From positions 1 to 46,515 of the forward strand of contig JAAWKU010000011.1 in the NCBI GenBank assembly GCA_022797535.1: 46,515 bases of DNA, in the 5' to 3' direction. Below the pieces are notes generated by a model that worked only from the letters and a program-made list of their open reading frames with translations, was not told the origin of the DNA and made no database searches. Both the position numbers and the translations under genes were made by a program. The stretch comes from Lachnospiraceae bacterium (GTDB lineage: Bacteria > Bacillota > Clostridia > Lachnospirales > Lachnospiraceae). Shown here piece after piece: positions 24,972-42,523 of the stretch (within the stretch, counting starts at the first letter, position 1; every line of letters starts with the position of its first letter).

Positions 24972-25895
24972 TTACATGAATTTTTTGTGACCCACACCCT
25001 GCTGCGCCGCCATAAACTGGGCCAGCAGGCCGTCAATTTTACCACGGATAAAATCCCGCTCTTCTTCCTTAACCAGGAAATAGAGGTAGGATTCCTTCAC
25101 ATAGTCCAACGGCATGCCCCGCCCCGCAATCTTAAAGTTACAAAAGCCTCTGTTGATGTAACCGCCGATCTGCTCATTGGTGATAAAAGCCGGTCTTTCC
25201 ATACATTCCGCAAAGCTGCGCGGAGTCGACTGGTTGGGACAGGGAAAGCCGGTGTGAATGTCAAACGCAAGCTGCAACTCGGACTGCTGGCGATAATGCT
25301 CCGCCCGCATGACGCACCCGGGATAGCACACCTCGTTGACCAGGATCTCCACCCGCCCGGCCGAGGGCGCGATGGCATCCAGCACGCCCTCGGCATGGTT
25401 TAAGTCATAATCCAGCACCACCAGATAGTAGTCTCTGTCCAGTTCCGCCTGCAGACTCTCCAAGTCTGTAATCCGTTTGGTGGTGGAGGAAATCAGCGGA
25501 TACCGGGGATACTCCCTGCGAATATATTCCTCCAGCACCGGCGTGTTGACCAGCACCTGATTCAACCCGTTGTCCGCCAACTCCATGATCAGGTTACAGT
25601 AAGTATCGTATACATGCTTTTCCTCCAGCAGGGAATTGGTCCAGGTAAAACGCACAGGAATTCCCCTGCTGTTATAAAGATTCAGGATTTTCTCCATATC
25701 CCGTTTACAGGTCAAGCCAAAGGAAACCCTGCCTCCGTTCCAGATTGCGCCGGGAAAAGTCCCGTACACAGAACCGATGCGGTATCCCTCACGGAATCTG
25801 TCAGGATAGTCCTTCATCATGTTTATAATAACCTGGTTTAAAAGCCTGAAATAACAAAAACCAGGCAGATGCCAGTATACTTCTTTTGCCGCCAT
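24972..25895 (-). CDS. U32-like TIM-barrel protein, paralogue B
   Basis: A 307-residue cytoplasmic protein clearly related to the next gene upstream. Shared segments are IWNGGR / LWNGGR, RGIPVRFTWTN / QGVPVRYTYTN, VLEEYIR-x-x-YPRY, DYYLVVLDY and GFCNFKIAGRG / GFSHFKIEGRT. The last resembles the FKIEGR end of peptidase U32 proteins. EVCYPGCVMRAEHYRQ matches their cysteine-rich segment. U32 members of this size, such as UbiU, UbiV and TrhP, bind an iron-sulfur cluster and act in hydroxylation of RNA or quinones, usually as pairs. The start at 25895 has AAAGGAGACAGAAC upstream. Membership is probable; the reaction is unknown. Confidence 0.65.
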   Translation of the reverse strand: MAAKEVYWHLPGFCYFRLLNQVIINMMKDYPDRFREGYRIGSVYGTFPGAIWNGGRVSFGLTCKRDMEKILNLYNSRGIPVRFTWTNSLLEEKHVYDTYCNLIMELADNGLNQVLVNTPVLEEYIRREYPRYPLISSTTKRITDLESLQAELDRDYYLVVLDYDLNHAEGVLDAIAPSAGRVEILVNEVCYPGCVMRAEHYRQQSELQLAFDIHTGFPCPNQSTPRSFAECMERPAFITNEQIGGYINRGFCNFKIAGRGMPLDYVKESYLYFLVKEEERDFIRGKIDGLLAQFMAAQQGVGHKKFM

Positions 25896-26007
25896 GTTCT
25901 GTCTCCTTTTGAATTGCGCCCTCGATCCGCCCACCGCTTCACGCCCGGTCTGCCCGCCTTCCCCGGCGCGTCCGCAAGCCTGCCGTCCCTTCAGGGTACC
26001 GATTACA

Positions 26008-26958
26008 TCAGGGCCAACGGCCTGGCCGAGGATGGTTTACGGTAAGGACTTTGCTGCTCACCAGATTGTTCAGCAGCAGGATCCTCACCTCCCCCTGCTT
26101 TTCCGGGCGGATCAGGTAGTGGACATAGGTCTCCACAAGAGAAAACAGATTGGCAGTTCTTCCCTCAATCTTAAAATGACTGAATCCCATGGGCACATAT
26201 TTTTCCCAGATATCCTCCGGGGAAACATAGGTGCTGTAATTCTTGATCGTATGGATACAGTTATACTCTCCGTACTCACAGTACCAGTGTTCCAGAGGCT
26301 TTTGCTGCTCCCTGGGCAGTCCCCGGTTCTCCAGCAGCGTGCGCTGATTTCTGGCCACATTCCGATAATGTTCCCCTCTTCTGGGGCAGTCAGGCGTACA
26401 CACGGGATTCACCAGGATTTCACAGCGGGCCTTATCCCGGATCCCGGCCAGTTTCTCAAACTGATTATTGAAGTTATAATCCAGCACCACCAGATAATAA
26501 TCCTTTTCCAGTTCTTCATTGACCTGCGCAATATCACGGATCTCCTTGCAGGTGGAGCTGTTCAGCTTATATCGAGGATATTTCTCCCGAATATATTCCT
26601 CCAAAACAGGGGAAAAGACCATCACTTCATTCATGCCGTTGTCCGCCACCTGCATGCAGAAATTACAGTAAGGATCCGAAAGATCCTCCCGAGTAAGCAG
26701 CATATTGGTATAAGTATACCTCACCGGAACGCCCTGAGCATTGATATTTTTTACCACATTTCGAACAAAGGCAGCATCGCACTGGTCATAATTGGAGGGC
26801 CGTCCACCGTTCCACAGAGATGTGGGGAACTCCCCAAAGAAGGAAGCAATCTTAACCCCTTCCCGAAACCATTCGGGCTTTTGCTTCAGCATGCTGAGAA
26901 CCAACATATTCAAAGGATAATTCTGGCGCAGGCCAGGCAGGTGAAATTTAACTTCCAT
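26008..26958 (-). CDS. U32-like TIM-barrel protein, paralogue A
   Basis: This 316-residue protein is the first of the paralogous pair. Cysteines cluster in DPYCNFCMQ, VNPVCTPDCPRRGEHYR and YCEYGEYNCIHT, more than in paralogue B, enough to hold an iron-sulfur cluster. The end GFSHFKIEGRTANLFSLVETYVHYL is the U32-type closing helix. Two ATG codons are adjacent; the second (26958) is 6 bases from GGAGG and is preferred. The gene lies 90 bases after GH43 and 112 bases before paralogue B, probably one transcript. Length and pairing resemble UbiU/UbiV, but an anaerobe of this kind should not make ubiquinone. Confidence 0.65.
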   Translation of the reverse strand: MEVKFHLPGLRQNYPLNMLVLSMLKQKPEWFREGVKIASFFGEFPTSLWNGGRPSNYDQCDAAFVRNVVKNINAQGVPVRYTYTNMLLTREDLSDPYCNFCMQVADNGMNEVMVFSPVLEEYIREKYPRYKLNSSTCKEIRDIAQVNEELEKDYYLVVLDYNFNNQFEKLAGIRDKARCEILVNPVCTPDCPRRGEHYRNVARNQRTLLENRGLPREQQKPLEHWYCEYGEYNCIHTIKNYSTYVSPEDIWEKYVPMGFSHFKIEGRTANLFSLVETYVHYLIRPEKQGEVRILLLNNLVSSKVLTVNHPRPGRWP

Positions 26959-27048
26959 CATTTACCTCCATCCCAGGTTCGGCATAAAGCAGCCCTGCGG
27001 CGTCCGTGCAGTCGCCGCTTAATTTAATATGCCGCTCTACAGTCCGTC

Positions 27049-28659
27049 TTACAATTCCATATGCCGGTATGACAAACCGGTGAACAGCACACGGCTCTCC
27101 TTCACGCCTTCCGCGTTTACAGCGTATATTCCGACGGTGCATCCCACAAAGCCTCCCGCCACCTCCGTAGAAAGGCTTCGGATGTCCACATCCTCCGCCA
27201 CAGGGAAGTCCGCGTTGCCGCAGGTGTAACCCACCGTGGCCCTGAGCCCCACAATCTGCAGATAGAGCGTAACAGCCTCACCCTGCTGCACTGCCGACAA
27301 CGGCACGGAACCCACCACGGTATCCTCTCCCTTCTGGCACAGCACAGCCTGCAGCTTTCCCTGTTCCACTTCCAACCGCATGTGATAGGAATTGCTCTGA
27401 AGCAATACCAAGCCAGCGCTGCAGCCATCCTCTCTTTCCTGCCCTCTCTCCAGGATCAGAGAGGCTTCCACATGAAAGGCATGATGCTGCTGGCGGATTC
27501 CCACAAAGCTGGGGCTTCCCTGTTCTTTCAGTGTAACAGATGTTGATGTGAGATACAAGCCCTTTCCGGATTCCAAAACATAGCGAGACAGGTCAGGGTT
27601 ACGCAGATAGAGAAATTCGTCCCCCAACGCTTCCATCCCGGCAAAATCATAATGCCTGTCGCTGCCCGGCGCCGCGTTCCGCCCTCTGCTGCGGCTGGTA
27701 TAGCTGTGGGGATCCCGCTCCGGCCGCCATTCCGGCAGAGACACTTCCACCTGATCCGTCAGCTGTCCCTCTCCCACATTGACCACCGGCCAGTCATTTT
27801 CCCAGGTCACTTTCGCCAGAAAAGTCTCTCTGCCCATGGTGGTATAACTCTCCAGGGGCCGCACGGCCAGCATGGTCATATACCACTCCCCTGCCGGAGT
27901 CTCAAATAAATCCCCATGGCCCACATACTTTACCGGATATGCCTGCCCCAGGTGCCTGTGGGTCAGAATGGGATTGCAGAAATTATTCTCGTAAGGGCCC
28001 CAGATATCCCTGCTCCGGCATACACTCACCGCATGTTCCGGCCCGGTGCCTCCCTCTGCGTGGAGAATATAGTAGTACTCACCGATCCTGTACAAATGGG
28101 GTCCTTCCGGCCAATGCACGCCCCGCATGGCGCCATTCCACACATCTTTGGGCTCTCCCGTCAGTTTCCAGGTTTTCAGATCCAGTTCCTGGATCCAGAT
28201 ATACCAGTCCCCATCGTATCTGCAGCCCTTCGGATTGGGATGGGTGCCGATATAATAGCATTTGCCGTCTGTGTCAAAGAAGAGGCTGGGATCGATACCA
28301 CCCGCCCCCTCCAGATAATGGGGCTCAGACCAGGGACCCTCGGGATTTTCCGCTGTAACCACATAGTTGCCGCCATAAGAAACATTGGTACAGATCACAT
28401 AAAAAGTACCCGCATGATAGCGGATCGTGGGAGCAAATAATCCCTGGGAATGTCCCGCGTGGGCAAGAGGCAGCTGGGAAGCCCGGTCCATCACGTTTCC
28501 AATCTGCTCCCAATGCACCAGATCCTTGCTGTGCAGCACCGGCAGGCCGGGGAAGTAGGCAAATGTGGAATTCACCAAATAGTAGTCCTCCCCTACCGCA
28601 CAGATGGAAGGATCCGGGTAAAATCCCGGCATAATCGGATTTATTACATATTGTGTCAT
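27049..28659 (-). CDS. Glycoside hydrolase family 43 (xylosidase/arabinofuranosidase type)
   Basis: A 536-residue enzyme without a signal peptide, so it acts on imported oligosaccharides in the cytoplasm. An N-terminal five-bladed propeller carries the three GH43 acids: Asp16 in PGFYPDPS, Asp123 in GGIDPSLFFD and Glu185 in HWPEGPHLY. A C-terminal beta-sandwich (about 350-536) has HHAFHVEASLILERG and the usual AGLVLLQSNSYHMRLEV. Subfamily and linkage (beta-xylose or alpha-arabinose) cannot be fixed by eye. GAGGAGGAAAG lies before the ATG at 28659. It follows the importer operon across a terminator and precedes the U32-like pair. Confidence 0.92.
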   Translation of the reverse strand: MTQYVINPIMPGFYPDPSICAVGEDYYLVNSTFAYFPGLPVLHSKDLVHWEQIGNVMDRASQLPLAHAGHSQGLFAPTIRYHAGTFYVICTNVSYGGNYVVTAENPEGPWSEPHYLEGAGGIDPSLFFDTDGKCYYIGTHPNPKGCRYDGDWYIWIQELDLKTWKLTGEPKDVWNGAMRGVHWPEGPHLYRIGEYYYILHAEGGTGPEHAVSVCRSRDIWGPYENNFCNPILTHRHLGQAYPVKYVGHGDLFETPAGEWYMTMLAVRPLESYTTMGRETFLAKVTWENDWPVVNVGEGQLTDQVEVSLPEWRPERDPHSYTSRSRGRNAAPGSDRHYDFAGMEALGDEFLYLRNPDLSRYVLESGKGLYLTSTSVTLKEQGSPSFVGIRQQHHAFHVEASLILERGQEREDGCSAGLVLLQSNSYHMRLEVEQGKLQAVLCQKGEDTVVGSVPLSAVQQGEAVTLYLQIVGLRATVGYTCGNADFPVAEDVDIRSLSTEVAGGFVGCTVGIYAVNAEGVKESRVLFTGLSYRHMEL

Positions 28660-28837
28660 AATATCTTTCCTCCTCTTAACAATAGCATCTAAGCTCTGCT
28701 AAAATTCTATTGGTTCCTGCAAATCTCATTTCCACACAGCCAATGCACCTGTTTGCCTTCTACTGCCTGCAATTACATGATATCTCCCCGCACCATGCAG
28801 AAATCAAATTTGTTTTTCTACCGCATTTTGAAAAAAA

Positions 28838-28870: not shown

Positions 28871-28911
28871 CACTACTTAGTTGTTTTCAGTTGTAGACTG
28901 TCATGCCAAAA

Positions 28912-30393
28912 CTATTTGCTGTTGCTCTCAGCAATGTAAGTCTGCCAGGTATCTCTGATCTTCTCAATGTGCTCGGATACGCTGGTGCCATCCAACAGGC
29001 TCCAAAGCAGATCATTACCGATATCCAGGTTGGCGATCAGTCCATGATAGGTCAGACGGCCATTGGTCATCATGCGGGTAATAGTGTAGTCCACAGACTC
29101 AGTATCGCGGAAATTCTTGTTGTAGCCGGGTTTCCATGCCTCGTAATCTTCATAGCCAGGAACGGGATCGGTCCACAGGTTGTAAACAAACGCCAGCTTC
29201 CAGGCCTTTTCAGCGTCATAGCAGGCAGGGATAACCACCGGGTTGTTGCTGTAAACATTCATGTAATCGGAAGCCTTGGGTCCCTTGGGGAAGCATACAA
29301 AACCAAAGTCATCTTCCATGGTGGAGAAGGCACCGCCGGCCTTATAAGCATCCTCAGTACAGAATACGGCTTCACCGTTCAGGAACGCCTGCTCAAAGTA
29401 GTTCCACTCAGCCCCCTCGGGATAAGGCAGCTTATACTGGTTCAGAGTATCCACCGCCCAGGTCAGAGCCTCCACGGTCTCATCGCTCTCCAACTTATAT
29501 ACATACTCGCCATTCTCCATGCCTACGAAATCGCCATAGTTGGAATATACAGCATAGCTGAGGAATTGTCCGTCATTCTGGGTCAGGGCGTATACATCAA
29601 TCACGCCGTCATTGTCTATATCTCTCTGCACCTGAGCGCACATATCAACCAGAGCTTCCCATGTCCACTCTCCGGCCTCCTGCAGTTCATAGGGCTTGTT
29701 GGGATCAATACCGGCCTCCTCCAGCAGTCTCTTGTTGAAAAAAATACCGGATCTGGGCTCGGTGTCACCCGCATACATAGCATAAACGGAATCCCCTCTG
29801 CTCATCAGCTTGTGTACGCCGGCGTCGCCCAGCCACTTCGCCTCGGAGAAATCCAGGCAGTCCAGGGTTGACAGATCATACATCAGACCGGAATCTATAG
29901 CAGCGGTGGTGGGAGCAGCCTCACGTACAATGAAGATATAGTTCTCATCGCCGCCGGTGGAAGCATAGTCTACAAAATCCTGAGGAGCGCTGCCCCAGTC
30001 AGAGATAGCCTTCTGCGTTAAAGTAAAGTTATAGGTCTCCTGAAGCCACTCGCGGTACTCGTCGCGGGCTTCCTCATAATCGTTGGCAGGCTCTACGGGA
30101 TCACCGGACCACCAGTCACGAATGATAACCTCCATGCCACCCAGATCATATACATTGCCATTCTCATCAGTCAGAACGGTGTAAGGGCTGACCTCCTCCT
30201 CGGAAGAAGATTCCTCGGGAGCGGACTGCTCCTCGGAAGAAGACTCCTCGGGAGCGGACTGCTCCTCGGGACTGCTGCTGGGAGTGTCGCTGCCAGTTGT
30301 AGGCGCGGGCTCATTGCCACATGCTGCCAGGCCCACGGTCATTACCGTTGCCAGAGACGCAGCGATTACTTTCTTTGCGATTCTACTTTTCAT
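28912..30393 (-). CDS. Sugar ABC transporter binding lipoprotein
   Basis: This 493-residue extracellular binding protein has a signal sequence ending in the lipobox VGLAACG, so it is anchored as a lipoprotein. An acidic Ser/Glu/Pro linker (about 35-68) contains 11-residue repeats (EEQSAPEESSS). The body shows the family 1 pattern: GIFFNKRLLEEAGIDPNKPYE, TWEALVDMCAQ and AVFCTEDAYKAGG. The start at 30393 is the second ATG, 8 bases from GGAGG. It is the last gene of the locus and follows a stem-loop of the kind that raises binding-protein expression. The ligand is presumably an oligosaccharide, judged by the GH43 next door. Confidence 0.9.
   Translation of the reverse strand: MKSRIAKKVIAASLATVMTVGLAACGNEPAPTTGSDTPSSSPEEQSAPEESSSEEQSAPEESSSEEEVSPYTVLTDENGNVYDLGGMEVIIRDWWSGDPVEPANDYEEARDEYREWLQETYNFTLTQKAISDWGSAPQDFVDYASTGGDENYIFIVREAAPTTAAIDSGLMYDLSTLDCLDFSEAKWLGDAGVHKLMSRGDSVYAMYAGDTEPRSGIFFNKRLLEEAGIDPNKPYELQEAGEWTWEALVDMCAQVQRDIDNDGVIDVYALTQNDGQFLSYAVYSNYGDFVGMENGEYVYKLESDETVEALTWAVDTLNQYKLPYPEGAEWNYFEQAFLNGEAVFCTEDAYKAGGAFSTMEDDFGFVCFPKGPKASDYMNVYSNNPVVIPACYDAEKAWKLAFVYNLWTDPVPGYEDYEAWKPGYNKNFRDTESVDYTITRMMTNGRLTYHGLIANLDIGNDLLWSLLDGTSVSEHIEKIRDTWQTYIAESNSK
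30196..30270 (-). repeat. 33-base repeats in the lipoprotein linker
   Basis: Two 33-base units (30196-30228 and 30229-30261) differ at one base and are followed by the start of a third. They encode an acidic spacer between the lipid anchor and the binding domain. Confidence 0.85.
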
Positions 30394-30422
30394 TTTCATA
30401 TCCTCCTTTAATCTATATAGAA

Positions 30423-30497: not shown

Positions 30498-31502
30498 TTA
30501 CATCTTGATACCGGAACTGCTGAGACTCTCCACAAATCCCTTCTGGGCAAACAGATACAATACCAGCACCGGCACTATAATCATCAACGTACCTGTGGAG
30601 GAAATGCAGTTGGCATATCCCACCGAAGGTACCTGAGACACACCCAGCAGCCTCTGCAGGTATGCCCCCAGGCCGTCAATAATGGTGGACAGCGAGGTGC
30701 TGACCAGTCCGATCTTCCCCAGGAATAACCGGGAGTAGAAACCATCTGTCCACTGCCATACAAAGGCAAACAGGAAACAGGATGTAAGGATGGGTTTTGC
30801 GTCCGGCAGCATGATTCGAACAAAGGTCTTTAAAGTGCCGCAGCCGTCCACATAAGCCGCTTCTTCCAATTCTTTGGGTATGTTTCGGAAGAACTGGCGT
30901 ATCATGTATATGTACAGTCCGTTTTTCAGCCCCATACAGCCTGCACTCATCAAATAATAGGGCAAAATCGATCCTCTCAGGTTAATAGTGCTGCCTGTGA
31001 CCGCCTTGAAAATACCCAGGATGTCGAAAAAGCGAAAGTGGAGATGCAGCGAAGTGGAAATAGTCTGCGGAGGCACCAGCACCACCATAAGCACACAGGC
31101 AAACCAGAACTTCTTAAGCGGGAAATCAAACCGGGCAAACCCATATCCCACCAGGGTGCAGACCGTAATCTGCAGTACGGCAATTGTCAAAGAGATCACC
31201 AGAGAGTTCACAACGCTGTGGCTGTAATCCATAATCTGCGCCGCAAGAGCATAGTTTTCAGTGGTAAAATGCTCCGGAATGGCCACCACAACAGGATTAT
31301 ACAAGTCCTGTTCTTCCATGAAGCTGACAGAGATCTTGTTAAAGATCGGCTGCAGGATCATAAAGCACATGCCAAAGAGTAAAACAAACCGGCACACTTT
31401 CCCCAGAAAACTCAGGATCACCTTTTTCAACAGATAACCGTCCGACTTCCTGTTTCTCTCCCAGAAGTTACTATTTTTACGTTTTACAGCCGTCTTAGTC
31501 AT
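30498..31502 (-). CDS. Sugar ABC transporter permease (MalG-like)
   Basis: This 334-residue inner-membrane permease has six or so membrane helices and the EAA loop EEAAYVDGCGTLKTFVRIMLP, which contacts the ATPase. Its start overlaps the end of the preceding permease by eight bases (ATGACTAA), so the pair is translationally coupled. No ATPase is encoded nearby. An N-terminal basic stretch of about 30 residues precedes the first helix. Confidence 0.93.
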   Translation of the reverse strand: MTKTAVKRKNSNFWERNRKSDGYLLKKVILSFLGKVCRFVLLFGMCFMILQPIFNKISVSFMEEQDLYNPVVVAIPEHFTTENYALAAQIMDYSHSVVNSLVISLTIAVLQITVCTLVGYGFARFDFPLKKFWFACVLMVVLVPPQTISTSLHLHFRFFDILGIFKAVTGSTINLRGSILPYYLMSAGCMGLKNGLYIYMIRQFFRNIPKELEEAAYVDGCGTLKTFVRIMLPDAKPILTSCFLFAFVWQWTDGFYSRLFLGKIGLVSTSLSTIIDGLGAYLQRLLGVSQVPSVGYANCISSTGTLMIIVPVLVLYLFAQKGFVESLSSSGIKM

Positions 31503-32403
31503 AATAGTAAACCCCCTTTGAAATAATCAGCGAACTTATACCCACACCGGCAATCACTATCAGGAAGTAGATCCATGTCATAGCCGATGAGAAGCCGTAA
31601 TCAATCTGATCCACCATGACCTTGGTGATTTTCTTAATCACCTCGTTGTCTGATCTCATGCAGAAGTCGATTACGGTGTAAATCCAGTTGACCAGGAACA
31701 TGGAACTGATCATGGGGAAAGTAATCTTCCACAGGCTCTCCCACTTGGTACAGCCCTCGATATCCGCCGCCTCATACATGCTGGCGGATATGGTCTGCAG
31801 ACCGGACAGGAAGATAATGATCTGGATACCTGACGCAATCGCGATATCATAGATCTTGTCAATGATCTCAAACACCTTTTCAAAAGCTCTCACACCTACA
31901 CCCGCGGTTCGAAGGATCTCCTCCACGGCCCCTGTGATACTGACACCGCTGGTGGTCTCTTCAATCGCCACCTGAAGCTGAGCCATCAACGCATTGTTTG
32001 TCTCCAATCCCAGTATAACACCGGAAGAGAGGATAACGGGCAGGAAAAATATGGCTCTTACCAGCGCTCTCCCCTTGAACTTCTGGTTCAGGATCAGCGC
32101 CACAAAGAAACTGAACACCATAATCGCCACAGAGTCCACGGCCATACGGGACAATTCCTCCACCAGCAGCCTGCTGAACTGAGGATCAATGGTAAAGGCC
32201 CTTGTATAGTTGTCAATCCCCTGAAAAACAGGATTAAAACTGCCTGCGCCCACTTCCACATTGCAGAAACTCATATACAGAGACTGGAAGAAAGGCTTCA
32301 CCATAAACACCAGGAATCCCAGTATGAAAGGCGCTATGAAGATGTATCCCGCTATTGCCTTGCGTCTCTGAAGACCCGCTAACTTATTCTTCTGTTTCCT
32401 CAT
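31495..32403 (-). CDS. Sugar ABC transporter permease (MalF-like)
   Basis: This 302-residue permease has GYIFIAPFILGFLVFMVKP as first helix and the EAA loop YEAADIEGCTKWESLWKITFPM. A stretch at about 135-195 (AQLQVAIEETTSGVSITGAVEEILRTAG and on) is an unusual insert between helices, not seen in typical MalF-like sugar permeases and probably outside the membrane. A weak AGGG is upstream, and a 26-base hairpin lies in the 80-base gap before it. Confidence 0.93.
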   Translation of the reverse strand: MRKQKNKLAGLQRRKAIAGYIFIAPFILGFLVFMVKPFFQSLYMSFCNVEVGAGSFNPVFQGIDNYTRAFTIDPQFSRLLVEELSRMAVDSVAIMVFSFFVALILNQKFKGRALVRAIFFLPVILSSGVILGLETNNALMAQLQVAIEETTSGVSITGAVEEILRTAGVGVRAFEKVFEIIDKIYDIAIASGIQIIIFLSGLQTISASMYEAADIEGCTKWESLWKITFPMISSMFLVNWIYTVIDFCMRSDNEVIKKITKVMVDQIDYGFSSAMTWIYFLIVIAGVGISSLIISKGVYYYD

Positions 32404-32483: not shown

Positions 32484-35078
32484 CTACCGAACCACCCTGT
32501 AATCTCTGGCAGGAACCACGGTTCCATCCTCCGCCGTAAGATCCAGATACCCATAATTGACATAGACTCTGGTGCCGTCCTCGTACATGGTGCAGGACAG
32601 ATCCGCAGTGATCTGCTCATGTCCTGTCATCTTCTGGTTAAAGATGTGTCCCAGTTCCGCATTGTATCTGGTATAGATTTCCACCAATCTGTCATGCCAT
32701 GCATTATAGTCGGAACCGTAGTATTCCGTGTAAAGGGTCTTTTGAAGAATAAATGCCGTCTCCTTCATCAAATTAAACTGTAATCCCGCGCCGTACTCCG
32801 CGCTCCGCAACAGCTCATCCTGGGTGTCTCCCGCCAAATTCAGGGGCGCGCCGGAATAATTCACATATCCGTGCAATGCCATCTGATAGAAAGGCACATA
32901 GACATCAAGAATGGTATACTCACTGCCCTGCAGTTCCATGTTGGTAATCATATCGCAGTAAGGCGCAGCATAGTCATTTCCCATGTTGATCATGACCTTC
33001 TGGCCGCTGTCCGCCAGCTCCTTGAATTCTCCTGCCTGCTGTTCCAGCACCTCCTGCCTGCTGCGCATATCTTTGAGGTAATAGTCCCCTGACAGATCCC
33101 TGCCGTTCTCCCGGAAAGCAACTCCTGCCCCATATTTGCCGGCCGCCTCCACCAGGTTCTGTGTCATTTCAGAAGCCACATCCGGATGCAGCAGATAGAA
33201 TTTCCCCTTCCATTCCGACTGTCCAAAGGAAACCGGGTTATATTCGTACAGTTCCGCCTTCTCCTTGCTGATAAAGCGGGCCGCGTCCGAGTAGACGAAA
33301 AATCCGTTAAAAATATTGCTGTCAAAAGCATACTGGGTCACACCGTCCAGATAAACATCCACGCCCAGCCCCTTGGCCGTGTCGATCATATTCTGCAGAT
33401 CTTTCTTACCGCCAAGTTCGGAGAGGGGTTTCACCCGGTTCAACATCTTCTGCTGATAACCACCGTTGGCCCATCCTACCAGCTTCACAGCCATATTGTT
33501 CAGGCCATCACCCTTCAACTGCTGGATGATCTCAGAAGCCTCCTTAAAGGTGGTCAGCTCCAGAGGTCTCGACATGGGAATACCCATAACCTGTTTCACC
33601 TTGTCCAGAGCACCCATGATTTCCACCGACACAGGAGTCTCCGTATCATCGTTCATGGTCAAATAGCCTTCATACCGATCCAGCAGATAAGACTGGTAAT
33701 CTTTTGCCATATCCACATAGCTGCCGCTGTCGATAAAGCTGTACCGCTGTACCAGACTTCCCTCGGGAAGATCCTGCAGATAGACATAGATACTGCTGTC
33801 CGCAATTTCACCCACATCATACTTCTCCCGAAGGGCCATACTGTATACAGGATAAACATAATTGTAATTGTTCTTCCTGCCGGCGATATCCGCATTGATG
33901 GAAGCGTAAGCCGCCCCATCCTCCAGGATGCAGATAAAGGAATCCTCTCCCTGGCTGATGCCAAACACATTGAAATAGTTCCTGGTGCTGTGTACCATGG
34001 CCACACGGTTCAAAGCCATATCCCAGCCATACACATTGGCATAATAATCGTTCTGAGCGCTCTTTCCATTGTTAAAGTTAATCAACGCGCCGCCGCCCTC
34101 CGGCACCAGCATGAATCCCTGATCCTGGGTGCCGCCTGCGCCAAAGAAGGGCAGAACCGACAGATTGTAAAGCGGGTATTTCTCTCTGTATTCGATCTCC
34201 CCAAGCGGCACCTCCACCAGCAGGTCACCACCATCCAGACGGTAGATCACATTCACATTAAATATGGGTTTGTCAAAGCTGGACTCTGCCTGATTCAACT
34301 CTTTGTCCGCCTGATAATCCTCCATCGTATAGCCGACTGCCTCAAAATATTCCTCAAAACGCTTTTTCATATGGTCCTTGATTCCGTCCCGCAGCACCCA
34401 AATTACTTCGTCCGCCAGAATCGGATAATTGGCCAGCAGTTGCTCCTTGTCATCCTTCTTGCCCAGCTTGTTGATATCATACTTCTTGTAGTACTCCTTC
34501 ACCATGCCGGCATCCTGCTGACTCATAAGACCCAGCCACTTTTGGAAATTCTCATCTACAATTACAGGCGGAATGATGTACTCCTTCTGAGTATCGCCGA
34601 TGGAGTAGTATACTTTTACGTAATCCTCACCCATCTCAATATCGTACACTTTCTTCTCGATACTGTAATTATAATTATTGTAGGGGGCGTCCACACCAGT
34701 CCTGTTACTCCAGGTCAACGCCAGAGTGGACTGCAGCCTGCCTTTTTCACTGCTCTGCGCCAAAGCATCCGAGGCGGCCCCTTCCGGATTGGAGCTCCAT
34801 ACTTTACCGCTGGACTTTACCTCCAGAGTAAACTGAGTGGTGTCAGAGTCCATCACAAACCGAAGTTCTTCATTTTCCAACACTATTTCAGTGGATTCAC
34901 CCTCCCAGCCGTTAAGCCGGATGATCTCTTCCTCCTCTTCTTCTCCTTTGTAGTTGATGATAAACAGCACACCGGCCAAAATAATCAATGCGATAATGCT
35001 GGGAGCGATCAGGCTCTTCAGCTGCCGGACCAGTGCCCTCTTTAATTCTGCTTTTCTTGCCGCTTTGTCTCTATACAT
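32484..35078 (-). CDS. DUF5696 membrane-anchored, glycosidase-like protein
   Basis: This 864-residue protein has one N-terminal membrane segment (about 22-42, LIAPSIIALIILAGVLFIIN) followed by an acidic GEEEEEE, so the bulk lies outside. A beta-sandwich-rich first half (about 50-440) is followed by a region at about 480-800 with TIM-barrel rhythm (LNNMAVKLVGWANGGYQQKM; LGVDVYLDGVTQYAFD; YCDMITNMELQGSEY) as in glycosidases. It matches the DUF5696 family. No catalytic residues have been established that I know of; acids in VYLDGVT and ITNMELQG are candidates. The start at 35078 has GGGAG 9 bases upstream. It may trim glycans at the surface for the adjacent importers. Confidence 0.8.
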   Translation of the reverse strand: MYRDKAARKAELKRALVRQLKSLIAPSIIALIILAGVLFIINYKGEEEEEEIIRLNGWEGESTEIVLENEELRFVMDSDTTQFTLEVKSSGKVWSSNPEGAASDALAQSSEKGRLQSTLALTWSNRTGVDAPYNNYNYSIEKKVYDIEMGEDYVKVYYSIGDTQKEYIIPPVIVDENFQKWLGLMSQQDAGMVKEYYKKYDINKLGKKDDKEQLLANYPILADEVIWVLRDGIKDHMKKRFEEYFEAVGYTMEDYQADKELNQAESSFDKPIFNVNVIYRLDGGDLLVEVPLGEIEYREKYPLYNLSVLPFFGAGGTQDQGFMLVPEGGGALINFNNGKSAQNDYYANVYGWDMALNRVAMVHSTRNYFNVFGISQGEDSFICILEDGAAYASINADIAGRKNNYNYVYPVYSMALREKYDVGEIADSSIYVYLQDLPEGSLVQRYSFIDSGSYVDMAKDYQSYLLDRYEGYLTMNDDTETPVSVEIMGALDKVKQVMGIPMSRPLELTTFKEASEIIQQLKGDGLNNMAVKLVGWANGGYQQKMLNRVKPLSELGGKKDLQNMIDTAKGLGVDVYLDGVTQYAFDSNIFNGFFVYSDAARFISKEKAELYEYNPVSFGQSEWKGKFYLLHPDVASEMTQNLVEAAGKYGAGVAFRENGRDLSGDYYLKDMRSRQEVLEQQAGEFKELADSGQKVMINMGNDYAAPYCDMITNMELQGSEYTILDVYVPFYQMALHGYVNYSGAPLNLAGDTQDELLRSAEYGAGLQFNLMKETAFILQKTLYTEYYGSDYNAWHDRLVEIYTRYNAELGHIFNQKMTGHEQITADLSCTMYEDGTRVYVNYGYLDLTAEDGTVVPARDYRVVR

Positions 35079-35160: not shown

Positions 35161-35817
35161 TCACAATCGGAACATGATCTCCCTTCCCAGAGATATGAAA
35201 TATGAGACACCCTGCGAGATCATGCTGAAAAACAGCAACAGGATAAACACCATCACCAGCATCGCGAACAGAGATGCAATGGTAAACAGGAAATTCTTGC
35301 CCAGGGAGTACTCATGAATCTGCATCATGGCCGCAAAGATCAGCGCCATGGCCCAAACCAGCGACAGGCCGCTGATCACCATGTAGAACTCCGCCTCATC
35401 CACCGTCACAAAATTGCTGAATATCATCAGCGGAAACTGAATCAGCGGATAAGGAGTCAGGGCGTAACAGGAAGCCATATACACCTGTCCCAGTCTGCCC
35501 TTGCCGTCAAACAGCGTAGTCAACGCCCAGTTTCCTACCACCCACAACGCCAGAGGAAAAAGTATGCTGGCCAGATACAGGAAGATATTAAGGGTTTCCC
35601 AATATACCGTCATAAAGATAAAACTGGTATATCGCAGTTTCATCACTCGAAGGAGCAGGGTAAGCGCCAAAATCGTGTTCGCTGCTGCATAGGATCCTCT
35701 CTTCTCATGGGTCAGATCCCAGAAGCCATCCAGAGGATGGGTAATGCAGTACAGGGCAAACTTTAAGGTTGCAAGATAATGCGTAAAAGTTTCTTTCTTT
35801 TTCAATGAAGCTATCAT
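35161..35817 (-). CDS. Yip1-like multi-pass membrane protein
   Basis: A 218-residue protein with five membrane helices and a Yip1-domain pattern. YWETLNIFLYLASILFPLALWVVGNWAL and GKGRLGQVYMASCYALTPYPLI are the conserved helix-loop-helix of bacterial Yip1 proteins. GGAGG precedes the ATG. It lies 12 bases after the NHL gene and 82 bases before the DUF5696 gene. Bacterial Yip1 proteins have no settled function. Its constant position here suggests a membrane partner of one or both. Confidence 0.82.
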   Translation of the reverse strand: MIASLKKKETFTHYLATLKFALYCITHPLDGFWDLTHEKRGSYAAANTILALTLLLRVMKLRYTSFIFMTVYWETLNIFLYLASILFPLALWVVGNWALTTLFDGKGRLGQVYMASCYALTPYPLIQFPLMIFSNFVTVDEAEFYMVISGLSLVWAMALIFAAMMQIHEYSLGKNFLFTIASLFAMLVMVFILLLFFSMISQGVSYFISLGREIMFRL

Positions 35818-35829: not shown

Positions 35830-37338
35830 CTACATTCTAAAGATATCAGCAGTATCTATCTCATGCTTAAGGTTCCTGACCTTGCCTATGACCAGGGGAA
35901 TAACCAGCACTGCGAACACCACGATGAAAATAACCAGTATATTTTCCTCCACCCACTCCTTGCGGTACTGCTTATAGGCTTTGGAATAATTGTCAGCGTC
36001 ATATTTCAGTTCAAAATACTCCATAGCCTCATGGTAACGCTCCTGTCGCAACAGAGAACGCCCGATGCCGATATAGGCCAAATCATAGTTGCCGTTGATC
36101 TTCATGACCTCCTGCCAGGTCTTTCCAGATTCCTCGTACAGACCACTGTCAAACTGGTCGATGGCCTGGTAGACCAGGCTGCCAAACTCCGTAGGACTAA
36201 ACAGGGTAATGGCACAATCCAGACTGTCCAGCACCAACAGGTCATAGCCCATATGGTCAATGGCGACGGGATAGCGGAAATAGCCGTCCATATTGCCGGG
36301 ACCACCAAAGGCGAATACCATGCGGCCCTGGTCATTGTAACCGAAAAGACGATCTCTGTTCCGATCCAATACCACATAGATGTCGTTGTCAAACACCGTC
36401 ACGTCCGTAAAACGGGAGGGGCCGTCATATCCTGCATTATTGCCCCAGTATAGATCGCCGACTACAAACCACTCTCCATTGCGCACCAGAATGTCATTAC
36501 CCATCAGATTCAGCTTCCGCACAGGATCCGCGGTCCCGGCGTCGACATCCTCCTCTTTCACATTACTGGTGCAGGCGTAGATAAAGCCCTCATAATCCAT
36601 ATAGATATTGTCATACTCTGTGGGAACGAAGGACTCCAGCTTTGCCTTCTGTTCCTCGGTGGCAATGCGTTTCCAGATATAATCCGCAAAATCATAGGTA
36701 ACTTTGGTGGCCCCTACGAAACCGGAGAACACGCCGTCACTTTCGTATTTGATAAGACCCTTATTGATACCCTGGGCCACACAGTATACCCTGCCCGCCG
36801 TGTCAATAACAATCTTGCTGGGGGAAAAAGTAAGTTCCGGATCCAGAGTATTGTCAACAGGCTTATCAAACTGCATCAGATAATTCAAATCCTCGTCCAG
36901 TTTCAGGATACGGCCATTACCCTTGTCAGCAATGTACAGTTCCCCTTCCTGGGACACGGCGATGTCTGTGGGACCGCTTAATGTCCTGACTTCCACATCG
37001 CCCTTGAACTCCTCTATGATCCGCTTCAGCTTAAAGCCTTCCGCATCCACCCGTTCCACCACCACAATCCGATTGTTGCCCGTATCGCAGATATAGACGG
37101 TATTGCCCTGGACAAACAATCCCTGGGGGTTAGACAGGTTCTTATCCAACCCCAAATCCACGGAAGTATACACACCAGCCACGGCGTAGGCATCGGGAGA
37201 GCCCTGCACATCTCCCCAGTAATCATAGTTGTAGCTATATCGTCCGCCGTCAGTGGATGCGCACACCGCCATGGAGGACCCCAACAGCATCACCGCGCTT
37301 GCCAGCAGGACGCCGACTCTCTTTATTATCTTTCTCAT
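35830..37338 (-). CDS. NHL-propeller protein with TPR-like helices and C-terminal membrane anchor
   Basis: A 502-residue exported protein. It has a signal peptide (1-27, ending MAVCAS), then NHL repeats over about 50-370: LSNPQGLFVQGNTVYICDTG, LSGPTDIAVSQEGELYIADKG, LTFSPSKIVIDTAGRVYCVAQ and YFRYPVAIDHMGYDLLVLDS. A TPR-like helical pair follows (about 395-450, YDLAYIGIGRSLLRQERYHEAMEY). A membrane segment (about 463-483) and a short basic tail end the protein. The propeller is therefore on the outer face. GAGGTGG lies before the ATG. It could be a sensor or a docking platform for the glycan-handling proteins around it. Confidence 0.88.
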   Translation of the reverse strand: MRKIIKRVGVLLASAVMLLGSSMAVCASTDGGRYSYNYDYWGDVQGSPDAYAVAGVYTSVDLGLDKNLSNPQGLFVQGNTVYICDTGNNRIVVVERVDAEGFKLKRIIEEFKGDVEVRTLSGPTDIAVSQEGELYIADKGNGRILKLDEDLNYLMQFDKPVDNTLDPELTFSPSKIVIDTAGRVYCVAQGINKGLIKYESDGVFSGFVGATKVTYDFADYIWKRIATEEQKAKLESFVPTEYDNIYMDYEGFIYACTSNVKEEDVDAGTADPVRKLNLMGNDILVRNGEWFVVGDLYWGNNAGYDGPSRFTDVTVFDNDIYVVLDRNRDRLFGYNDQGRMVFAFGGPGNMDGYFRYPVAIDHMGYDLLVLDSLDCAITLFSPTEFGSLVYQAIDQFDSGLYEESGKTWQEVMKINGNYDLAYIGIGRSLLRQERYHEAMEYFELKYDADNYSKAYKQYRKEWVEENILVIFIVVFAVLVIPLVIGKVRNLKHEIDTADIFRM

Positions 37339-37395: not shown

Positions 37396-38298
37396 TTAAT
37401 CCTTCAAGCCGGAACTTGCCATTGTCTCCAGGATCTGGCTCTCGGACAGGATGAATATACAGATCGGCACCGCCATTACGATAACCTGTACCGCAGCCGA
37501 CTGACCGGTTCTGGCGATACCGCCGCTCTGAATCTGCTGCAGCGCGTATACCAGCGTCTTTTTCTCCTCAGAGTAGATGAAAGTTGCCGCCCTGTTGTTC
37601 CAGAGACCCTGCACGGAGAAAATGATCAGCGTCAGCCAGGCAGGCTTAACATTGGGCATCACGATACCTGTGAACACTCTCCACTCGTTGGCCCCGTCAA
37701 TTTTGGCCGCCTCAATCAGCGAGGTGGGCAGCCCCTCCATGAACTGCTTCATCAGGAACAGTCCGGTGGGCAGCGCAAAGGCTGGAATAATGATGGCCCA
37801 GTAGGTATCAATCCACCCCATGGAATTGATAATCAGGTAGTTGGGGATCTGAGTCACATAACCGCTGAACATCAGGGCTACCGTAACCAGCTTGAAGAAA
37901 GTCTGTCCTCCGGGAAACTCATACTTGGCCAGAACGAAAGCGCCCATGGATGCCACAATCAAATGACCAAATGTTCCCACTGCCGTGATGAACACCGTAT
38001 TGAATATGTATCTGGAGAATGTCACCCAGGACTTGCCCATGGTTACAAACAGGTCCGAGAAGTTATCCAGCGTCGGATTCTGCGCAAAAACGGTAGGAGG
38101 AAACTTGAACAGTTCGTCCAGCGGCTTCAACGCGGATTCAATCGCGTACACCAACGGGAATACCATGGCCACGGCCATAAGCAGCAGAAAGAGATATACA
38201 AAGAAATCTCCTACCCTTGAACGGTTGGGCTGCCTTCTCTTTAAAATTCTGATTCTGGGTTGCTTTGCTATTGTCGCTACTTTTCTCGATTTGCTCAT
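37396..38298 (-). CDS. Sugar ABC transporter permease (MalG-like)
   Basis: A 300-residue permease with six helices and the EAA loop IEAAKIDGANEWRVFTGIVMP. AGGAACC lies before the ATG, and only one base separates it from the stop of the upstream permease, so the two are coupled. Residues 1-28 are strongly basic. Confidence 0.95.
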   Translation of the reverse strand: MSKSRKVATIAKQPRIRILKRRQPNRSRVGDFFVYLFLLLMAVAMVFPLVYAIESALKPLDELFKFPPTVFAQNPTLDNFSDLFVTMGKSWVTFSRYIFNTVFITAVGTFGHLIVASMGAFVLAKYEFPGGQTFFKLVTVALMFSGYVTQIPNYLIINSMGWIDTYWAIIIPAFALPTGLFLMKQFMEGLPTSLIEAAKIDGANEWRVFTGIVMPNVKPAWLTLIIFSVQGLWNNRAATFIYSEEKKTLVYALQQIQSGGIARTGQSAAVQVIVMAVPICIFILSESQILETMASSGLKD

Positions 38299-38299
38299 A

Positions 38300-39238
38300 T
38301 CAGGTTCCTACTCTTCTCAACAGACTTTGAATTGCTTTGTTACACAGCATCATCACCAGGAACAGCATGGTTGCGATAGCCGATGCATATCCCATCTCAA
38401 ATCTGGAAAAACCATAGTCAAACAGGTGGGTCACGACGGTACGGGCCGCGTAGTCCGTACTGGGGTAGCCACAGAGGGCCATGGTCACATCGCACACCCC
38501 AAAGGACTGGGTAATAGCCATAACGGCGCCGAACATCAGCATGGGCTTCATGTTGGGCAGAGTGATAAACCACAATTCCTGCCAACGGTTCTTCACACCG
38601 TCTATACAGCCTGCCTCATATTGAGAGCGATCCACACCCTGAAGGCCTGCCACGAAAGACAGGAAGCCCATTCCCAAACTCATCCACAGAATGACTACCA
38701 TACAGATCGGCAGCATGTAAGCCGGGTTGGTCAGCCACAGGATGGGGGCATCAATCAGGCCCATGTCGATCAGCAGTGAATTCACCTGTCCGTAAGCGTC
38801 ACCACGGAACAGCACGGAGAAGATAACGAACACATTGCCGGCAATGGACGGCGCATAGAACACCACCACCGCGATCGTCCTGATCCACCGGGGCAACTCA
38901 TTGATCAACCACGCAAACAGAAATGACATGATGTAGCCCAGGGGGCCGGTAATCACCGCAATCATGAATGTGTTCTTTACGCCCTGCAGGAAGATATCAT
39001 CTGACAGGATCAGGTTGATATAGTTCTGCACCCCGATAAACCTTGGGGATTCCAAAATATTATAGTAGGTAAAGCTGAAAAAAATGGAACTGCATACCGG
39101 TAATATGTAAAATATGGTAAACAGGATTGCATAGGGGGCCAGGAACGCGTAACACATCTTTGCCCGCTTTGCCTTTTTGACCGCCACCCGAAAATTGTGT
39201 TTTCGAAGGGTGACATATTTCTGTAAATATTCTTTCAT
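38300..39238 (-). CDS. Sugar ABC transporter permease (MalF-like)
   Basis: A 312-residue permease. MCYAFLAPYAILFTIFYILP is the first helix, and YEAGCIDGVKNRWQELWFITLP is the EAA loop. It is placed 18 bases after the membrane-anchored binding protein and forms a heterodimer with the next permease. The partner ATPase is absent from the window. Confidence 0.95.
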   Translation of the reverse strand: MKEYLQKYVTLRKHNFRVAVKKAKRAKMCYAFLAPYAILFTIFYILPVCSSIFFSFTYYNILESPRFIGVQNYINLILSDDIFLQGVKNTFMIAVITGPLGYIMSFLFAWLINELPRWIRTIAVVVFYAPSIAGNVFVIFSVLFRGDAYGQVNSLLIDMGLIDAPILWLTNPAYMLPICMVVILWMSLGMGFLSFVAGLQGVDRSQYEAGCIDGVKNRWQELWFITLPNMKPMLMFGAVMAITQSFGVCDVTMALCGYPSTDYAARTVVTHLFDYGFSRFEMGYASAIATMLFLVMMLCNKAIQSLLRRVGT

Positions 39239-39256
39239 CCTACCTTCTCCCCCTCC

Positions 39257-42106
39257 TTATTCCAGCGGTAAGCCAAATTCTTTTCGCTTCTTGGCCAACT
39301 CTTCGTTGATCGTGATCGCGTAATCTATAAGGGTCTCGCGCGCGTCTTCCTTCTTATTGATAACCCTGCGGATCGCATTGGTGATATGCCGTCCTGTGTA
39401 GTAGCCGCCCGGCACCTCCCGGATGCCCACGGTCTGCTGCCACTGATCCAGCAACACTTCTATATCATCCGCGCCCCAGGCCAACTGGGAGAAAGCATTG
39501 ATATTGGCTGTGGCATATCTTGCGGAGGAACCCAGCAGAGCCTCGATCTCCCGTCCGAAACGGATCTGGGTATCAACCTGGGACCACCATTTCATAAACT
39601 CCCAGGCATTCTGTTTTCTGCCCTCATCGGTCTGTTTAATCATCATGGTGGCGCTGCCGGAGATGAAGTCTGACCGATCGATATAGGTCTGGCCGTTTTC
39701 ATCCACCCTTTCCGTGCCGGGAATCAGTGTGAAATCCCACAGGCCCCGAATCTCAGGTGCCGACACCATCAGGGTGTTGTAAGTGGCATAATTGGCCACA
39801 CCGATGGGCATCTCGCCCGAACGGAAACGGCTCACAAAGTCAAAGAATACAGGAATGCCGTAATCATTAAAGTACTTGATATAGTCCGCCATGGCCTCCA
39901 CACCGGCCTCTTCGTCCACTGTGGTTCTGGTCCCCTTTTCATTATACAGTTCACCGCCATACTGGAACAGCAGGCTGAAATACATACTCAGGTCAGCTGC
40001 GTTGGAAGCGATCTGGGTAGTGGCTGCCGCGCTGCCGCTGGAACCGCCCGCGCTGGGGATGCCAATGGACATGTTGTTGCCCTGTATGGTGGGCAGCATC
40101 TCGATCAGTTCCTGCCAGGTGTTGGGCACTTCCAGTTCCAACTGCTCCAGAATGTCCTTACGGTAGAATAATACATTGAAGGTCTGAGTCTCCGGCACCG
40201 CATAAATATGTCCGTCCAAAGTGTACTGGGTATAGGAACTGGGGGTGTAGTTGGCAAGCACCTCCTGGTAATCAGAAAACTGGGTAATATCCTCCACGGA
40301 ATTACGCAGTGCGTAATTAACCGGCTGATCCGCGCCCACAGACAGTACCACATCAGGGCCTCTGCCTGCCACCACCGCCGTCAGCAGGGCATCCGCGCCA
40401 ACGATCTCTACGTTGGCCTTGATACCGGTCTGGGGAGTAAATGTATCATCCACCATGGACTTCAGAATTGTACCCTGATCACGTCCAGTCAACACCCACA
40501 CCTTGATCACATCGTCGCCGTTGTCCTCGTATACGTCACCCACCGCATCGTAATCCACGATGAAGGATGCCACAAAAGAACGAACCTCATGAGCCAGCTT
40601 CTGGAAGAAGTTGGAAGTATCTTTCTCCGGCTTGGTCTCTGTGCCGCTGACTACAATATAGTCAATGTCCAGCTTAGACTCGCTCATATTTAATATGGCG
40701 GTACCCAGGGCCGTAATATTGTCTTTAAAAGGGATAAACTCCGTAGTGATTTTTCCCGGCTTCTCCACAAATCTCTCCAGCTGCTGGGCAATGGTCTGGG
40801 CAGTGGCGATCTTATCCGCCTTCTGTCCACTGTAAGCCACCACCTCGTCTACAATCTTGTAAAGTCTCATGCGTTCCAGATCCATGGCTGCCATGACCTC
40901 GGGATAGTTGCTGTCAATATGGTAATCCCTGTATCGGTCAGGAGTTGCGCCGGTATACACCAGAATAGTCCTGTAGATCTGATTCAGGCGGAAGGTGCAA
41001 TCCTCCAGTTCCTCCATAATGGGCCCCATCTCTCCCAAGGTGGCTTCCAGCCGCAGAGTATGCGTGCCGGCAGTCAGGTAGAACTCATAGGGGTTGCCTT
41101 CCTTATCCGCCAGGGTCTTGCAGTCCCAGTCATTTTTATACTCAAAGGAAATGCTCTTGGCTTCCTCGAAGGGGATCTCGCCGTCTATGTACAGGGTGCG
41201 GTTGGACACGCTGCCCCGGGAATAATTCTGCCGCCCTTTGACTGTGATATTGTAGTAACCGTCCTCAGGAACCTCAATGTCCCACTGGATCCACTGGCCG
41301 GCGCTTCTCCATGCATCGCCGCCCACATAATTCAATACGGTATGCATTACCGTGTAGGGCTGAGAAGCTGGACTCCCGGTCTGATTGGCTCTGTACTCTG
41401 CGTAAGTCTGCGTCTCCGTCACCGGAAGGATATGCACGCCTTTTAACACCATGGGCTCATTGACTGCCTCCAGACCGATGGTGTTGGTTCCTTTTTCCAG
41501 ATAAAACATATAGGGATCAGAAATGTAGCCCATACTGTCCTCGCAGTAGGCGCTCTGCCATTCAAATACTTCCACCTGAGTGGGACGGATCTCATTGCCC
41601 TGATTATCCACGCGGACATCGCCGCCATCAGTCCAGATCCGGGTAAATTCCATATTGCCGGCATCGTCAAAAGGCAGTTCCCCGTTAATATAGAGAGCCC
41701 TCTCCGCAGCCACGCCCCTGGACTCAGGCACCAGATAATCCAGTACCACATTATAGAATCCCGCTTCGGCCACTTCTACCTCCCAGGTCACTGTGGACTT
41801 GGTATCCGTAAACAGGGATTTGGCCTCGCCTTCATAATCATTATAAATCTCCACACCGCCGTCAGCAGTATACGCGAAGAGATCCAAAGCCACCTCCGCC
41901 TGAGGACGCGCAGCGTCCGCATGGGCATTCAAATAACGGGTATACGTCCCCTCTCGCACTGCACCCTCGGTGTCAGCAGTCAGGTCATGGCCTGCATACT
42001 TATCCTCAAAGGTCTCTACCTCTCTCAGGTTCAGCAGCAAACAAAATACCACAAACACTGCGACCACACCTATGAGCATGAGTAATTTCTTGACAGTCTT
42101 ATTCAT
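39257..42106 (-). CDS. Membrane-anchored binding protein with two sugar-binding-like modules
   Basis: This 949-residue protein combines three parts. An uncleaved-looking N-terminal membrane segment (6-27, LLMLIGVVAVFVVFCLLLNL) has no lipobox. Two related beta-sandwich modules follow at about 95-215 and 260-370, each with VTWEVEVAEAGFYNVVLDY / IQWDIEVPEDGYYNITVKG and a NRTLYIDGEIPF-type strand, like carbohydrate-binding or galactose-binding folds. A helical spacer covers about 375-520. The C-terminal part (about 530-949) is a family 1 solute-binding domain (GPDVVLSVGADQPVNYALR; FNVLFYRKDILEQLELEVPNTWQEL). The start at 42106 has GGGAGG upstream. It heads the importer operon. This layout is much larger than a normal binding protein. 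Confidence 0.88.
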   Translation of the reverse strand: MNKTVKKLLMLIGVVAVFVVFCLLLNLREVETFEDKYAGHDLTADTEGAVREGTYTRYLNAHADAARPQAEVALDLFAYTADGGVEIYNDYEGEAKSLFTDTKSTVTWEVEVAEAGFYNVVLDYLVPESRGVAAERALYINGELPFDDAGNMEFTRIWTDGGDVRVDNQGNEIRPTQVEVFEWQSAYCEDSMGYISDPYMFYLEKGTNTIGLEAVNEPMVLKGVHILPVTETQTYAEYRANQTGSPASQPYTVMHTVLNYVGGDAWRSAGQWIQWDIEVPEDGYYNITVKGRQNYSRGSVSNRTLYIDGEIPFEEAKSISFEYKNDWDCKTLADKEGNPYEFYLTAGTHTLRLEATLGEMGPIMEELEDCTFRLNQIYRTILVYTGATPDRYRDYHIDSNYPEVMAAMDLERMRLYKIVDEVVAYSGQKADKIATAQTIAQQLERFVEKPGKITTEFIPFKDNITALGTAILNMSESKLDIDYIVVSGTETKPEKDTSNFFQKLAHEVRSFVASFIVDYDAVGDVYEDNGDDVIKVWVLTGRDQGTILKSMVDDTFTPQTGIKANVEIVGADALLTAVVAGRGPDVVLSVGADQPVNYALRNSVEDITQFSDYQEVLANYTPSSYTQYTLDGHIYAVPETQTFNVLFYRKDILEQLELEVPNTWQELIEMLPTIQGNNMSIGIPSAGGSSGSAAATTQIASNAADLSMYFSLLFQYGGELYNEKGTRTTVDEEAGVEAMADYIKYFNDYGIPVFFDFVSRFRSGEMPIGVANYATYNTLMVSAPEIRGLWDFTLIPGTERVDENGQTYIDRSDFISGSATMMIKQTDEGRKQNAWEFMKWWSQVDTQIRFGREIEALLGSSARYATANINAFSQLAWGADDIEVLLDQWQQTVGIREVPGGYYTGRHITNAIRRVINKKEDARETLIDYAITINEELAKKRKEFGLPLE

Positions 42107-42523
42107 ACATGCCTCCCTGTGTACATAACAAGATAAAAAATAGAGAAAAACCATCATGCGGACTTCGCACTTTATGCTCACTATTATAGTATAGGGAATC
42201 TGAATTTGTCTCCTTATATTTTGCTATTTACTCTTCACACATTGCTTATTTTTTTAGAAAAATCAAAAAAAATATTGTGCAATATTTACTTTTAAGGTTA
42301 TTGATGCTAAAATATACATATAGAAAATCCCCCTGTTTTCGGGCTTTTTCAGCAGTTTTACAGCAGAACTGCCATTTGACTCTCAGAAAGAGAAAGCAAC
42401 TTTTGGGGTAAATAGCAATATCTGCATATCAGTACAAGGATTCCATGGACGATACATAGATTCAGGCCAATGCCGGAATTCAGACCGGCTGGACCTCAAA
42501 AGATTAATAAGGAGGCACTGAGA
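42107..42523. promoter_or_regulatory. Divergent control region between the importer operon and araC-type gene
   Basis: GTAAATAGCAA occurs twice, once on each strand: 42231-42221 reading toward the importer operon and 42408-42418 reading toward the regulator. The same site thus stands upstream of both units in the same relative direction, as AraC-family sites do. The operon promoter is probably GAGACA, 18 bases, TATAAT (42188-42183). An 18-base palindrome AAATATTG-TG-CAATATTT lies at 42270-42287 between them and may bind a different repressor. I see no convincing promoter for the regulator. Confidence 0.65.

Follow-up and report, generated by a model that had tools for sequence, protein, structure and literature searches.

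An NHL–Yip1–DUF5696 gene set accompanies a putative CUT1-like glycan importer in Bacillota

Here, we describe a gene set, conserved among distantly related Bacillota, in which an NHL propeller protein, a Yip1-family membrane protein and a DUF5696 protein (hereafter, the trio) accompany one of two CUT1-like ABC importers. The trio occurs next to many kinds of sugar-degrading enzymes in related bacteria and is probably a component of generalist machinery for glycan uptake. We consider it rather probable that the trio forms a vestibule on this importer (importer B) and captures glycans there, with DUF5696 mainly holding the chain and locus-specific enzymes finishing its breakdown. The observations behind this reading are the content and order of the genes, their co-occurrence across genomes, the fusion of two of them, the presence of two co-varying blocks, the variety of the neighbouring enzymes and the expansion in copy number.

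The window (the whole stretch of 46,515 nucleotides that was analysed, on contig C11 of an assembly with 206 contigs and 94% completeness) comes from a gut bacterium for which the best named match is Lachnospiraceae bacterium IMSAGC_003 (93% identity between the DUF5696 proteins). As a previous sequence-only reading had described, it carries nine same-strand genes for two binding proteins, four permeases and three membrane proteins placed between the two permease pairs, all present and supported by Pfam. They run on the minus strand from 42106 to 28912 in the order SBP1, perm1F, perm1G, NHL, Yip1, DUF5696, perm2F, perm2G and SBP2, and are spaced by 1-98 bp, with an 8-base overlap between perm2F and perm2G (gene starts shorter than the ORFs, as in SBP1, DUF5696 and SBP2, reflect our choice of start codon). 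Importer A, of type I (CUT1-like), would consist of SBP1 (39257..42106, ORF to 42181), perm1F (38300..39238; BPD_transp_1, E 6.6e-12) and perm1G (37396..38298; E 4e-12). SBP1 is a membrane-anchored solute-binding protein of 949 residues, composed of an N-terminal TM segment, two beta-sandwich regions (possibly CBM35-like), a helical part and a C-terminal solute-binding domain. Since its structural search covered residues 528-945 only, which form a MalE-like binding domain, the N-terminal regions are assigned from secondary structure, a sub-threshold Pfam match and a weak sequence match.

Between the permease pairs lie the genes for the NHL propeller protein (35830..37338; Pfam NHL, E 2.5e-15), the Yip1-family multi-TM protein (35161..35817; Pfam Yip1, E 1.1e-11) and the DUF5696 protein (32484..35078, ORF to 35210; Pfam E 7e-196). 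By hydropathy, the NHL protein has TM-like segments at residues 4-29 (N-terminal) and 460-491 (C-terminal), together with a weak TPR-like stretch (TPR_2, below its cut-off), the Yip1 protein has several such segments, and DUF5696, like SBP1, has an N-terminal one, followed by a large ectodomain spanning roughly residues 50-864. Importer B would comprise perm2F (31495..32403; BPD_transp_1, E 6.4e-7), perm2G (30498..31502; E 4.9e-11), SBP2 (28912..30399, ORF to 30447; SBP_bac_1, E 5.4e-9) and the trio as three dedicated accessory subunits. SBP2 is probably a lipoprotein, judging from a lipobox read by eye; a 33-bp repeat (30196-30271) lies after this lipobox, in an N-terminal acidic Ser/Glu-rich linker. 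All four permeases combine the BPD_transp_1 domain with an EAA-type loop.

Accessory genes flank the nine on both sides. Downstream on the minus strand, a GH43 protein with a GH43_C2 domain (27049..28659), matching BoGH43A (5jow, E 1.2e-105) and of the arabinofuranosidase/xylosidase type, is followed by a tandem U32-like pair (24972-26961), with protein b at 26008..26961 and protein a at 24972..25934, both matching PF01136 just under the cut-off. (Separately, the annotation of P0120, a DUF5696 protein of 700 residues, lists PF01136 (U32) alongside PF18952.) Upstream, an AraC-family regulator on the plus strand (42470..43474; HTH_AraC 1.9e-25, AraC_binding 4.4e-9) is divergent from the nine genes and probably governs the locus. 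Beyond it, and beyond the 25000..42523 range of the sequence-only reading, lies a second minus-strand GH43 plus GH43_C2 gene (43465..45003; Pfam GH43, 3e-37), nearest to 6mly (a GH43-CE protein, 2.9e-109), with HiAXHd3 (3zxj) at 1.1e-48. A cytoplasmic location had been proposed for GH43 enzymes, and it agrees with the lack of TM-like segments (by hydropathy) in either protein, their nearest relatives being arabinofuranosidases and xylosidases. Given these matches to BoGH43A, 6mly and HiAXHd3, arabinoxylan-type sugars are the likely substrate at this locus. Scans of the whole window for tRNAs and Rfam families returned no matches, the terminator scan gave a count at the shuffled level, and promoter-like sites numbered 35 versus 21.7 in shuffled sequence (sd 4.6), but fell on both strands and provide no usable operon evidence. 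Elsewhere in the window, tandem repeats at 7835-8107, 11389-11624 and 16471-16755 have periods of 21, 45 and 39 bp, all divisible by three, and sit in unrelated predicted genes (ORFs 7194-8588, 10797-12113 and 15244-18249), while a 24-bp array of ~10 copies occupies 19737-19970, between two minus-strand genes.

The conservation of this arrangement was followed in two sets of loci: a near set (the best 80 of 160 confirmed related loci) and a distant set of 60 loci, found in 38 further genomes of this phylum and on two other contigs of the same assembly. The latter was drawn from 65 other strong PF18952 places, leaving out five (in G124, G077, G037, G314 and G187), and includes one close relative from the window's own family (L132); its DUF5696 proteins share 22-32% identity with that of the window (20 proteins aligned). 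Yip1 stands directly upstream of DUF5696 in 80/80 near and 60/60 distant loci (58 of the latter by rule, L116 and L157 by hand, next to an overextended DUF5696 frame). NHL is present in 79 of the 80 near and 59 of the 60 distant loci, both misses being contig ends (L028, with 511 bp upstream, and L151), and it is fused with Yip1 into one gene in 38 distant loci and in none of the near ones. The expectation that DUF5696 neighbours elsewhere would carry NHL and Yip1 is thus borne out in both sets, and we take the association to be real. Butyrivibrio hungatei DSM 14810 (locus L062) is one of the strains that carry the module.

The permeases downstream of DUF5696 are nearly as constant. Near loci have a permease directly after it in 78/80 cases (the exceptions being a contig end, L073, and a split DUF5696 frame, L030) and a second one in 77/80 (L008, L024 and L073 are contig ends), and the corresponding distant counts are 56/60 and 54/60. 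Of the distant misses, L170-L172 are explained by contig ends and L153 and L157 by overlapping frames; the remaining three (L138, L160, L161) are genuine exceptions, with no second permease at the usual position. SBP1 was found in 69/80 near loci, the remaining 11 having <3.5 kb of contig upstream, and in 41/60 distant ones (32 upstream, 9 downstream); several of the 19 distant loci without a detected SBP1 are cut by contig ends. Among the accessories, relatives of AraC occur in 47/80 near loci and those of the U32-like proteins in 32/80, those of the first and second GH43 in just 7 and 16. GH43 enzymes were accordingly rejected as core members.

At the genome scale, 398 genomes were drawn from the window's phylum (taken as Bacillota). 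PF18952 matched at E 0.001 in 52 of them, over the cut-off in 43 and strongly (best E <1e-120) in 41, which span 18 family labels. A profile of the module Yip1, scored on up to 7 candidates per genome, matched in some way in 70 genomes of the same draw, and strongly in exactly the 41 with strong DUF5696. Its scores were bimodal (151-294 bits versus at most ~42 for other proteins), and DUF5696 lay within 3 kb of 86 of the 87 strong Yip1 places, the remaining one ending 539 bp before its contig end. Because this profile was built partly from these same loci, strong matches there are expected, and the informative point is their absence from every other genome of the draw; Fisher's test for the co-occurrence gives 7e-57, a value that ignores the relatedness of the genomes. 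Weakly matching genomes (11 of the 52 for PF18952, two of them just above the cut-off) and two control genomes with matches below the cut-off were not counted as members. Our guess is that these weak matches are other glycosidase barrels; the one in G297 is a GH129 protein, the PF11308 match among the 398 genomes. Copy numbers vary widely, with 3-22 PF18952 matches per genome in seven genomes mostly picked for many candidates (contig-end fragments included).

Distance correlations separated the genes into two blocks. Calculated over 42-60 distant loci for each gene, pairwise rho values, which are not independent observations, were 0.86-0.88 within SBP1, perm1F and perm1G (0.88 for perm1F with each of the others) and 0.72-0.82 within NHL, Yip1, DUF5696, perm2F and perm2G, as against 0.53-0.70 between the blocks; SBP2, the least conserved of the nine, reached 0.34-0.55 with all other genes. 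With SBP2 set aside and the comparison restricted to the 39 loci shared by the remaining eight genes, DUF5696 tracked perm2F and perm2G (0.76, 0.74) more closely than perm1F and perm1G (0.56, 0.51), as did Yip1 (0.75 and 0.76 versus 0.62 and 0.63); the values for NHL were 0.70 and 0.69 versus 0.68 and 0.62 (A-block range 0.62-0.69). One genome (G058) illustrates the pattern, as the trio and the perm2 pair are present in 10/10 of its loci and SBP1 in 3/10, with NHL and Yip1 fused in all ten and the fused gene placed after perm2G in one. Such results, along with the distant loci without SBP1, leave the earlier proposal that the trio feeds both importers in doubt. Equal service to importers A and B was rejected on the distance correlations, although NHL is ambiguous; most likely the trio is a component of importer B and makes up its surface portion, a unit that is often, though not invariably, joined by importer A and the enzymes. 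As a separate observation, several consecutive solute-binding protein genes follow perm2G at L118 (10500-17300) and L123 (13100-19900), as if more than one of them served a single permease pair.

The same co-variation with the permeases speaks against a purely sensory trio, one that would detect glycans at the surface and either gate importer B or signal to a regulator, without being a structural part of uptake. Sensing would be a plausible task for a glycosidase fold with partly lost catalytic acids together with a propeller and a multi-TM protein, and the divergent AraC regulator, with its relatives in near loci, would fit too. We nevertheless judge a sensor improbable, as the Pfam scan of the trio revealed no DNA-binding, kinase or anti-sigma domain, and as AraC and LacI regulators both occur near the distant loci.

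The enzymes beside the distant loci are diverse. From 230 non-core ORFs of at least 200 residues, 152 lay on the module strand with at least 280 residues and 151 of these were scanned (49+43+59; all but L162:5544-7073, a relative of GH43b), and the families considered were the 25 commonest per alignment (of 58, 63 and 84). They included GH42, GH26, GH43, GH10, GH3, GH28, GH95, GH2 and GH130, the pectate-lyase, alginate-lyase and chondroitinase-B families, and housekeeping genes. In G058, for which one neighbour was taken at each of the ten loci, four match GH106, GH31, a rhamnogalacturonan-lyase-like and an arabinofuranosidase family; the other six (F5/8 type C, DUF3604, HEAT, laminin G, a chemotaxis receptor and one with no match) match no family that we recognise as glycan-degrading. 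Catabolic enzymes adjoining the block, together with type I permeases that carry EAA-type loops and are paired with solute-binding proteins, make it very improbable that the block exports or assembles a cell-surface glycan, a reading that would draw on the fact that we know of no established role for Yip1-family proteins in sugar uptake.

The DUF5696 ectodomain is predicted to adopt a complete GH129 glycosidase fold. The suggested comparison of this protein with glycosidase barrels thereby returned a glycosidase fold, in a predicted structure, and the overall fold is common to the GH129 glycosidases (NagBb, and the Zobellia 3,6-anhydro-D-galactosidase ZgGH129). DUF5696 differs from them in its N-terminal TM segment, in the lack of a PF11308 match and in having its catalytic acids kept only partly. 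PF11308 (GH129) does not match the DUF5696 protein of the window, for which hmmscan at E 0.1 gives PF18952 only, and we therefore do not file it as a GH129 member. Residues 620-864 searched alone against the PDB gave chance matches, none to GH129. PF11308 itself had 0 matches in G000 and 60 relatives (61 genomes), a result that shows no absence as the controls were silent too, and 1 match across the 398 genomes; when a GH129 protein was used as query in 9 genomes of that match's order, 2 matched. An hhalign comparison of DUF5696 with that Bacillota GH129 protein aligned only the C-terminal cap.

The candidate catalytic residues of DUF5696 were assessed for conservation in an alignment of 101 rows (60 distant, 40 near and the window). 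If D486 of ZgGH129 is the GH129 nucleophile, as we take it to be on the strength of the 8rzk entry title, its putative counterpart in DUF5696 is D665, which three MAFFT modes align with an Asp of a GH129 protein from Bacillota, a mapping based on sequence. D665 is Asp in 41/41 near and 52/60 distant sequences, six of the eight losses falling in two clusters of three closely related sequences each and the other two at isolated loci. The acid/base of GH129 is presumably a Glu near beta-strand 5; in the corresponding stretch (694-714) no column is at least 50% acidic among the distant sequences, with 709 (29/60) and 698 (27/60) coming closest, and position 702 is D in 38/41 near sequences versus A in 31/60 distant ones. 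D725 (D or E) and E761 (acidic), which we assume could provide the acid/base in a GH36-like layout, are each kept in 53/60 distant sequences. With possible catalytic acids retained, DUF5696 could be an active surface enzyme that works with NHL and Yip1 to capture a glycan, trim it and supply both importers, leaving cytoplasmic GH43s to finish. The complete predicted fold, the aligned D665, the near-set Asp at 702 and the retained D725 and E761 all favour such an enzyme, and we still hold it to be unlikely in view of the lost nucleophile counterpart, the poorly acidic beta-5 stretch, the absent PF11308 match and the varied neighbouring enzymes. The idea that DUF5696 trims a glycan, advanced in the sequence-only reading, consequently appears doubtful.

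Among carbohydrate ABC importers, CUT1 systems of the MalFGK2/MalE type with a shared MsmX/MsmK-like ATPase come closest. The present locus resembles them in its permease pairs with EAA-type loops, its MalE-like binding domain and extracellular solute-binding protein, and its lack of an ATPase gene. It differs in the conserved trio that accompanies one permease pair, in the presence of two importers in one gene set, and in an anchored SBP1 with extra N-terminal domains. The statement that no importer ATPase is encoded in the locus holds: two ABC ATPase genes on the same strand (45038-46513), just past the second GH43 and the second of them cut by the window end, resemble LolD/FtsE-type families most, with every listed family scoring below its cut-off, and they were rejected as the power source of the importers on this family assignment. 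In the assembly, the one OB_MalK match lies on contig C64, beside CUT1-like permeases, and contig C50 holds a 502-residue frame with two TOBE_2 matches. We infer that a MalK-type ATPase encoded elsewhere drives the importer.

We picture the vestibule on importer B as a physical complex working in uptake. The NHL propeller would be tethered to the Yip1 membrane protein (often as one polypeptide), and NHL and DUF5696 would together form a surface vestibule in which oligosaccharide or polysaccharide chains are captured and oriented; the part of DUF5696, as a glycosidase relative, would mainly be to hold the glycan. The sugar would then pass perm2F/perm2G, powered by the MalK-type ATPase from elsewhere in the genome, and locus-specific enzymes (here the GH43s, probably on arabinoxylan-type sugars) would complete its breakdown. 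A bolder version, which we put forward tentatively as possible but doubtful, is that of a widespread, undescribed and ATP-driven Bacillota machine for glycan uptake, with an obligatory vestibule of NHL-Yip1 and a non-catalytic GH129-fold protein on an ABC pair, threading long oligosaccharides or polymers, re-tooled with different enzymes in the ~ten copies of some genomes, and serving as a single-membrane counterpart of SusC/SusD.

SusC/SusD is the glycan uptake system of Bacteroidota, in which SusC is TonB-dependent. The likeness lies in a conserved core that recurs as paralogous copies within a genome (10 loci in G058) and has different enzymes beside it, and it is a comparison of logic only, not of membership, as ABC permeases in a single membrane are used here and none of the 14 window proteins scanned has a SusC or SusD domain. 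The clustering of an AraC regulator, an ABC importer and glycoside hydrolases also recalls gpPULs, from which the core reported here, two importers with NHL, Yip1 and DUF5696, differs; a limited literature search found neither this core described nor any report on DUF5696 or on NHL, Yip1 and ABC transporter systems, and an earlier description is possible. The uptake of large glycans in single-membrane gut and soil bacteria is understood less than SusC/SusD, and the accessory genes conserved alongside an ABC importer in 41 of the 398 sampled genomes are concrete candidates for testing. They suggest roles for DUF5696 and for one clade of bacterial Yip1 proteins, and the NHL-Yip1-DUF5696 combination may serve as a marker for locating glycan-use loci.
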